A stretch of DNA of 35,509 nucleotides from a virus, in IMG/VR virus record IMGVR_UViG_3300024259_000095, positions 1 to 35,509 of that record; one strand, 5' to 3'. Below, piece after piece: positions 33,404 through 35,171 of the stretch. A model generated the notes under the pieces. That model was not told the origin of the DNA, ran no database searches, and saw nothing but the letters and a program-made list of their open reading frames with translations. Each line of letters begins with the position of its first letter. Positions within the stretch are counted from its first letter, which is position 1. Position numbers and translations under genes: made by a program.

Positions 33404-34789
33404 ATGGCCGACAAGTTGAAGATTGAGTATGTGGCCTTAGATGAAGTGGTGCGATTCGCACGGAACCCCAAGCAACACGATGAACCGGGTATCACCAATA
33501 GCATAGAGCGTTTCGATTTCAACTCGGCGCTGGAATACAACGAACACCCTGAGGCAACGTTCTTGCTCGCCGGTCATGGGCGGTGCAAGGCCCTGGTGAA
33601 GATGCGTGAGGCTGGCGATGAACCACCTGGCCACATAGCCAAGGACAAGAAAGGGCGCTGGATGGTGCCGATAGTCAGGTTGAACCTGCCACCGGGTGAG
33701 GCAGAGGCTTATTCGCTGGCGCACAATCAGTTGACGGTAGTTGGTGACCCTGAAACGGGGAACCTGTACGATGAAGAGGAGTTGGCTGGGCTTGTGGCTG
33801 ACCTTGATAGTCGTGGGGTTGGACTCGGTGGCCTGGGTTGGAGCGATGAGGAACTGAGCGGTATGTTGACGGACGCTGGTGGAGGGCCAACTGAGCCGCC
33901 GCCCGAACCGCCGCCGCCCGAGATTAACAAGGCAGCCGAGTTGCAGGAAAAGTGGGGAACAGAACCAGGGCAACTATGGGAACTTGGTAGACACCGGGCA
34001 ATCTGCGGAGACTGCACAGATCCATCAATCATGCAGAAGTTGTGTAACCCGCTGCGTGCCAACCTGCTTTTCACTTCACCTCCTTATTGGGTTGGAAAAG
34101 ACTATGAGACTCAGCAGAGTGAGTCTGAAATTGATACCTTCATCCTGGCGTGCATCGCAGCATGGACAGATAATGTGCATGTAGACTATGGACGCATCGT
34201 CATCAATACCGGAACCGCCGCCATACATAGAATTGAGAAGGGCAGGAAACTTGAGGTGTTGCCCCTGATAGACAAGTGGGCACATGCACTCAAGGCGCGT
34301 GGATGGTTGGCGCGTCACTTCAGGATTTGGGCCAAGAGTGGTGATCTGCCAGCATCTATTTCTGCCAAGTCAGACGTTGTAGACCAGCGCTGGGAACACC
34401 TTGTCACATTTGAGCACAACCAGTGTCAGCATATGTACCTCTGCGCTTTCTGGAAGCCTGACGGTGAACAGAGGGGGCAAGAACAACTAGGAACACCATG
34501 GGTACAACAGGGGGTGTGGTCTGACATTCAGGGTGAGCGTAGTTGCGACGGGTTGCACGTTGCCTCGTTCCCTGTTGAATTACCACGTCGGTACATTATG
34601 ACTTACACCAAGGTTGGTGAGTACGTGCTGGACCCATTTGGCGGCGCAGGCACCACGCTACTGGCGGCGCACCAACTCAAAAGGGTGTGCTTCATGTCTG
34701 AGTTGGACCCGCGCTATGTGGCAGTGACGCTTGAACGCTGGCACCAGATGACCGGGGAACAGCCCGTGCTGTTGGACAATGCGGACTGA
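33404..34789 (+). CDS. ParB-domain/DNA methyltransferase fusion (461 aa)
   Basis: The N-terminal 150 residues are a ParB/Srx-type domain: VALDEVVRFARNPKQHD, then GHGR at 57-60 and IVRLNLPPGEAEAYSLAHNQ. After a Pro-rich linker (near residues 165-175) comes a beta-group DNA methyltransferase with motif IV TSPPYW (224-229) before motif I DPFGGAGTT (410-418). SPPY points to an exocyclic amino target, N4-cytosine or N6-adenine, and rules out the 5-methylcytosine class. The start is ATG 33404, with AAGG about 8 nt upstream; the upstream ATG at 33260 would run through the protease gene start. The Vsr-like gene overlaps its end by 11 bp. Confidence 0.9.
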   Translation: MADKLKIEYVALDEVVRFARNPKQHDEPGITNSIERFDFNSALEYNEHPEATFLLAGHGRCKALVKMREAGDEPPGHIAKDKKGRWMVPIVRLNLPPGEAEAYSLAHNQLTVVGDPETGNLYDEEELAGLVADLDSRGVGLGGLGWSDEELSGMLTDAGGGPTEPPPEPPPPEINKAAELQEKWGTEPGQLWELGRHRAICGDCTDPSIMQKLCNPLRANLLFTSPPYWVGKDYETQQSESEIDTFILACIAAWTDNVHVDYGRIVINTGTAAIHRIEKGRKLEVLPLIDKWAHALKARGWLARHFRIWAKSGDLPASISAKSDVVDQRWEHLVTFEHNQCQHMYLCAFWKPDGEQRGQEQLGTPWVQQGVWSDIQGERSCDGLHVASFPVELPRRYIMTYTKVGEYVLDPFGGAGTTLLAAHQLKRVCFMSELDPRYVAVTLERWHQMTGEQPVLLDNAD

Positions 34790-35171
34790 AACAGCCCGCA
34801 AGAACCGCTCGGGCAACGCGCTTGAACGGGCGTTTCAACGACAACTCAAACGAAAATACGGCAACCGGGTGATGTTCGAGGCAGGGCTCCCGGGCACGCC
34901 CGACGCGCTGCACCTGCCCACGCGCACGGCCATATTCCTCCACGGCTGTTTCTGGCACGGTTGCCCGCAACACTACAAGGCACCACGGGCCAACGCCCGA
35001 TTCTGGGCACAGAAGTTGAGGGCCAACAAAGTGAGGGACGCCACAGCACAGCAAACCTTGCAGGCAATGGGCTACTCGGTGCTGGTGATTTGGGAGTGCG
35101 AGTTTCGGGCGAAAGGGATCAAGCGGCTGGTGCGGGTTCTTTCTCAAACAGCAGCCCGCACTTCTCGGTGA
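34779..35171 (+). CDS. vsr: Vsr-family DNA mismatch endonuclease (130 aa)
   Basis: The Vsr core is clear: GTPDALHL (D42 equals the catalytic Asp51 of E. coli Vsr), then FLHGCFWHGCPQHYKAP with H55, C57, H60 and C62 in the positions of the catalytic His and zinc ligands, then ANARFWAQKL, NKVRDA and GYSVLVIWECEFR. E. coli Vsr nicks at T:G mismatches from 5-methylcytosine deamination. The N-terminal specificity segment is short and differs from the usual family start. The ATG overlaps the methylase end by 11 bp, so the two are co-translated. The 3' end overlaps the opposite-strand radical SAM gene by 53 bp. Confidence 0.9.
   Translation: MRTETARKNRSGNALERAFQRQLKRKYGNRVMFEAGLPGTPDALHLPTRTAIFLHGCFWHGCPQHYKAPRANARFWAQKLRANKVRDATAQQTLQAMGYSVLVIWECEFRAKGIKRLVRVLSQTAARTSR

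Follow-up and report, generated by a model that had tools for sequence, protein, structure and literature searches.

In the window, by which we mean the whole stretch of viral DNA analysed (35,509 nucleotides), a gene for a Vsr endonuclease overlaps a gene for a DNA methyltransferase of the exocyclic-amine type that carries a ParB-like domain. An earlier note, made from the sequence, had described this arrangement, and the description was confirmed by the coordinates, profile searches, fold matches and a twin contig. We favour, with modest confidence, the explanation that the two proteins have separate jobs: the Vsr would act as an orphan T:G nickase and the methyltransferase as an unrelated protective enzyme.

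The methyltransferase gene and its overlap with vsr

The methyltransferase gene is located at positions 33,404 to 34,789 and the vsr gene at positions 34,779 to 35,171, both on the plus strand, where the earlier note had placed them. The ATG of vsr falls within the 3′ end of the methyltransferase gene. The resulting 11-bp overlap of methyltransferase stop and vsr start, read from the sequence (34,779 to 34,789, plus strand), suggests that translation of the two genes may be coupled. The window derives from a linear-class viral contig of 35.5 kb, which is probably a fragment. The capsid and tail genes are on the minus strand and the pair is on the plus strand, flanked by genes for a head-maturation protease (PF14550) and a radical-SAM protein (PF04055, matched on the twin contig). 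The radical-SAM gene adjoins the pair on the opposite strand (window 35,119 to 35,508; L034 12,958 to 13,788). A second IMG/VR contig has the same arrangement, with 99.84% identity over 14.65 kb and zero differences within either gene. Therefore, an assembly error is unlikely. This twin contig was the sole find when we searched past the contig end, and it extends the phage by about 1.4 kb. For counting, the window contig and the twin contig were treated as one lineage.

The methyltransferase has 461 amino acids. It matches PF01555 (E 2.2e-26) and, over its whole length, the DNA methyltransferase family phrog_498 (E 1.1e-62). Motif IV, TSPPYW (34,073 to 34,090, plus strand), is conserved in four related sequences (L036, L037, L038 and L039), and the SAM-binding motif I, DPFGGAGT (34,631 to 34,654, plus strand), was assigned from the sequence and alignment. 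Motif I is C-terminal to motif IV, which is the beta-class order. Thus, the earlier note was correct in assigning the partner of Vsr to the exocyclic-amine type. The SPPY motif is typical of N4-cytosine enzymes, although it is no proof of the modified base, and from this motif the enzyme is probably of the N4-cytosine type. The tetranucleotides AGCT (18 observed against 84 expected, in both halves) and CTAG (17 observed against 53 expected) are scarce in the window (positions 1 to 35,509). This scarcity suggests that the phage avoids a site at which a host restricts or methylates DNA; the site-avoidance counts in the window did not identify the methylase target.

The N-terminal domain of ParB/sulfiredoxin type covers approximately residues 1 to 105 (33,404 to 33,718, plus strand; the boundary is approximate). 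The ParB-like family phrog_620 matches residues 1 to 171 (E 5.9e-19), and there was no match of the N-terminus to Pfam ParB_N. In Foldseek, the predicted model of the methyltransferase, which is of low confidence (pLDDT 58.5), matched ParB-CDP 6sdk (E 1.2e-5) and the exocyclic methyltransferase 2zie (E 9.5e-8). The ParB-like domain noticed earlier is thus borne out. Exocyclic methyltransferases with a ParB domain form a family that is common in phages, and the fusion of a ParB-type domain to a DNA methylase is shared with phrog_498 members and with BCE_0392 of Bacillus cereus, in phages and prophages. The ParB-methylase of the B. cereus prophage has nicking activity (PMC5512222, PMC3459991), which is a precedent for the second activity that the earlier note had proposed for the ParB domain. 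It should be mentioned that the nicking is reported in papers for BCE_0392; the window protein may or may not share it. Unlike the window protein, the ParB-domain methyltransferases in the phages fetched have no Vsr partner: there was no Vsr within the fetched flanks of the four closest relatives, which were obtained in a methyltransferase-based scan, and in other phages TSPPYW ParB-methyltransferases are near terminase-like genes with no Vsr in the stretches fetched.

Conserved and lost residues of the Vsr protein

The Vsr protein has 130 amino acids and was recognized by both sequence and fold. It matches PF03852 (E 3.6e-7; 30.4 bits, over the 27-bit cut-off) and TIGR00632 (E 1.9e-23; 83 bits, under the curated cut-off of 97.85 bits). 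The PDB sequence search found E. coli Vsr (1cw0) with E 1.5e-16, and the predicted structure (pLDDT 88.9) has 1cw0 as its best PDB match (fold E 1.5e-7). The active-site residues listed for Vsr (PMC12907096) are present: E16, D42, H55, H60 and D87 correspond to E25, D51, H64, H69 and D97 of the E. coli enzyme. In this assignment, E16 was placed by hand against L003, and the large alignment is off by one there. The alignments place the equivalents of His64, Cys66, Phe67, Trp68 and His69 in HGCFWH (34,941 to 34,958, plus strand). The aromatic wedge (F58 and W59, equivalent to Phe67 and Trp68) is kept, as are the predicted zinc residues C57, C62, H65 and C107. The gene has no stop or frameshift and is identical in both contigs.

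A free-standing Vsr-like (EDxHD) homing endonuclease with no repair role is an extremely improbable identity for this protein. Homing endonucleases are common in phages (PMC3943268), and the catalytic domain of I-Bth0305I (3r3p) is a weak fold match (E 0.38). However, E. coli Vsr fits far better, the zinc ligands and the Phe-Trp wedge are present, and the window Vsr is without the extended DNA-binding region typical of the EDxHD family. This identity was rejected on the basis of the fold and the zinc residues.

Compared with E. coli V.EcoKDcm (TIGR00632, 1cw0), the window Vsr shares the fold, the catalytic and zinc residues and the wedge, and it differs in its neighbour, which is not a C5 methylase, in its TIGR00632 score below the cut-off, and at its N-terminus. 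The residue aligned with Met14 of the E. coli enzyme is Ala6 (codon at 34,794 to 34,796, plus strand). Among 238 aligned relatives, 230 have Met at this position, and the remaining non-Met sequences, apart from the window Vsr, are truncated or garbled. The N-terminal arm is also short, with five residues before the Met14 equivalent, and the first ten residues are the low-confidence part of the predicted model. In 1cw0, Met14 intercalates together with the wedge residues. Therefore, loss of its equivalent may weaken or alter recognition. Because the Ala6 codon is outside the 11-bp overlap, the change was not forced by the overlap. The window Vsr may thus have changed its use of substrate; the loss of Met14, in one lineage, is the best hint of this, and it counts against an orphan T:G nickase.

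Methylase genes beside Vsr genes

We scanned viral contigs and one genome per species, and obtained at least 241 distinct Vsr sequences. The census sample was not drawn at random: it comprises the sequences that best matched either the window Vsr or one motif. Among the matches listed, at least 161 Vsr genes had 2 kb or more on both sides; a C5 methylase gene was within 2 kb in 112 of these 161 (within 100 bp in 73 of the 112), and there was none in the flank in 41. For the 162 viral Vsr genes among the matches listed, the nearest neighbour was a C5 methylase in 74 cases and an exocyclic methylase in three, against 2.0 expected from the density of exocyclic genes in the same loci (7 of 1158 genes, from motif-based calls with few counts). 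Thus, C5 enzymes accompany Vsr far more often than chance would predict, and exocyclic enzymes do so about as often as expected by chance. The earlier statement that Vsr genes usually sit beside 5-methylcytosine methylases is therefore upheld, and the dominance of C5 pairing in the family argues for T:G repair as the ancestral function. In contrast, the coupled function that had been read from the adjacency was not supported, given these neighbour counts and the frequency of orphan Vsrs in phages. The earlier note had also named a conserved pairing of this Vsr subtype with C5 enzymes as an observation against its proposal. Such pairing holds for the family, whereas the small clade of the window mostly does not show it.

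The three Vsr genes with an exocyclic neighbour, among the matches listed, are those of the window, L061 and L043. In L061, a DPPY methyltransferase gene is convergent with vsr on the opposite strand, and there is no intact C5 gene nearby. In L043, a D12 adenine methyltransferase gene is downstream of vsr and a C5-like fragment is on the other side. This fragment (L043 5,585 to 5,878; 97 amino acids) looks by eye like the beginning of a C5 methylase from a phage and has no Pfam match. The same gene pair was sought in other phages, as the earlier note had suggested; none was found beyond the twin contig, and the same-strand overlap without a C5 gene was found in the window lineage only, in both cases among the matches listed. 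Among the papers searched, none described a pairing of Vsr with N4-methylcytosine. Thermus plasmids were considered as a link between N4-methylcytosine and Vsr and were rejected: the Vsr there is near a C5 gene.

ParB-type genes were found within 2.5 kb of eight viral Vsr genes, among the matches listed, and in L005, L006, L011, L014, L017 and L019 such a gene occurs together with genes for Vsr and for a C5 methylase. Several small ParB proteins near Vsr and C5 genes end in a zinc-ribbon-like CPxCGxxW (L006 4,324 to 4,860; L014 4,374 to 4,838; L017 4,338 to 4,895; L005 1,886 to 2,407; L011 6,153 to 6,563). The window cassette suggests a variant of this ParB-methylase-Vsr theme, in which the methylase type may have been exchanged.

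If recognition has changed, the Vsr might be tied to the N4-cytosine methyltransferase, either repairing U:G derived from N4-methylcytosine or nicking DNA that lacks the phage mark. We regard an altered-recognition enzyme of this kind as unlikely. Repair matched to the lesion, by which N4-methylcytosine would lose methylamine to give uracil and the Vsr would nick, at the methyltransferase sites, the U:G mismatch or one related to it, is in itself quite unlikely. The overlap of the genes and the N4-methylcytosine suggested by SPPY are consistent with it, and the unique loss of the wedge Met, together with the long branch of the window Vsr (1.7, in a tree that leaves many forks unresolved), points to altered recognition. 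However, U:G is normally dealt with by uracil glycosylase, the pair is present in one lineage only (two near-identical contigs), exocyclic neighbours occur at the chance rate, and ParB-methyltransferases with TSPPYW elsewhere are without Vsr in the fetched flanks.

The chance-level adjacency equally speaks against a restriction-like pair, in which the Vsr would nick host or rival phage DNA lacking the mark and the methyltransferase would protect the phage. We consider such a pair very unlikely. The layout is operon-like, PADLOC uses the label type II nicking endonuclease for its Vsr model, the ParB-methyltransferase of the B. cereus prophage nicks DNA, and the restriction modules of the phages KL3, AH2 and Milagro include a Vsr. 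These Burkholderia phages and a fourth, Menos, resemble the window in that a Vsr and a DNA methylase are encoded together in one phage module. Unlike that of the window, the methylases of all four are C5 enzymes, and KL3, AH2 and Milagro add a separate restriction enzyme, annotated or published. Moreover, Phe67 and Trp68, which serve in mismatch recognition, are kept in the window Vsr, and the cassette is not overlapped by any further nuclease gene.

Orphan Vsr genes and the functions of the pair

A C5 methylase elsewhere in the phage had likewise been named by the earlier note as evidence against coupling. None was found in the 35.5-kb contig, either with Pfam PF00145 at E values up to 1 or with a local C5 HMM, and no D12 adenine methyltransferase was found in it. 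This part of the earlier argument stands. However, the contig is incomplete, so that an unseen C5 gene elsewhere in the phage is possible. The whole records of viral Vsr genes that lack a C5 gene nearby were also searched with PF00145, and there was no match in 12 Vsr-bearing phage contigs of 31 to 103 kb, which are perhaps fragments too. The window Vsr shares a small clade with those of L043 and L239 (SH-aLRT 80; 97 for the pairing with L003), and the L043 (103-kb) and L239 (41-kb) contigs have no PF00145 match. Orphan Vsrs are thus ordinary in phages, and the window Vsr may be one that adjoins an unrelated methylase. In L003 (locus at 3,365 to 4,967), the closest relative of the window Vsr is preceded by a DUF6884 gene (PF21818) and by one that by eye resembles a 7-deazaguanine enzyme of the QueC type; this is possibly a base-modification locus. 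The Vsr frame of L013 (203 to 559), which overlaps an adenine methylase gene, has an in-frame stop where its sibling L018 has Trp, and is either a pseudogene or a case of recoding.

Turnover in the group is suggested by the C5-like fragment of L043 and the stop in the L013 Vsr. The window Vsr might accordingly be a C5-linked gene that was captured along with a different methyltransferase and whose function is fading, and the absence of the Met14 equivalent and the short arm are in line with this. We find such decay quite improbable: the catalytic and zinc residues are all kept, the frame is intact and both contigs are identical.

By the separate-jobs explanation, which we prefer, the methyltransferase, probably acting on N4 of cytosine, most likely marks phage DNA against host restriction; both base and function are inferred. 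The Vsr, an orphan relative to its neighbour, would nick 5′ of the T in T:G mismatches, and repair synthesis after the nick would restore C:G. One or more host C5 methylases that modify phage DNA would supply the 5-methylcytosine, or else a C5 gene carried by the phage outside its sequenced part would do so. We infer both the T:G substrate and these sources of 5-methylcytosine, and the genes would then be adjacent because they are expressed together, not because their products take part in one reaction. This explanation is supported by the intact catalytic and zinc residues, by the ParB-methyltransferases without Vsr elsewhere and by two precedents. Caulobacter VsrA is unlinked to any C5 gene and yet functionally tied to one (PMC12907096), and gonococcal V.NgoAXIII takes T:G in every context, gonococcal Vsrs being multispecific (PMC6116569). 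VsrA is like the window Vsr in having no linked C5 methylase gene; unlike it, VsrA is chromosomal, has Asp for His64 and depends genetically on a C5 methylase encoded elsewhere. Against separate jobs counts the tight, co-oriented overlap, which is unique among the matches listed.

In the textbook view, Vsr partners 5-methylcytosine methylases, and the window pair breaks this rule. In phages, a Vsr is often present with no phage C5 gene in sight. This suggests that phage DNA is burdened by 5-methylcytosine of host origin. The pair, with its uniquely lost recognition residue, offers a cheap test of substrate diversification among Vsr enzymes. If a functional link is true, the Vsr would be a lesion-matched repair enzyme or a restriction partner for an exocyclic methylase.
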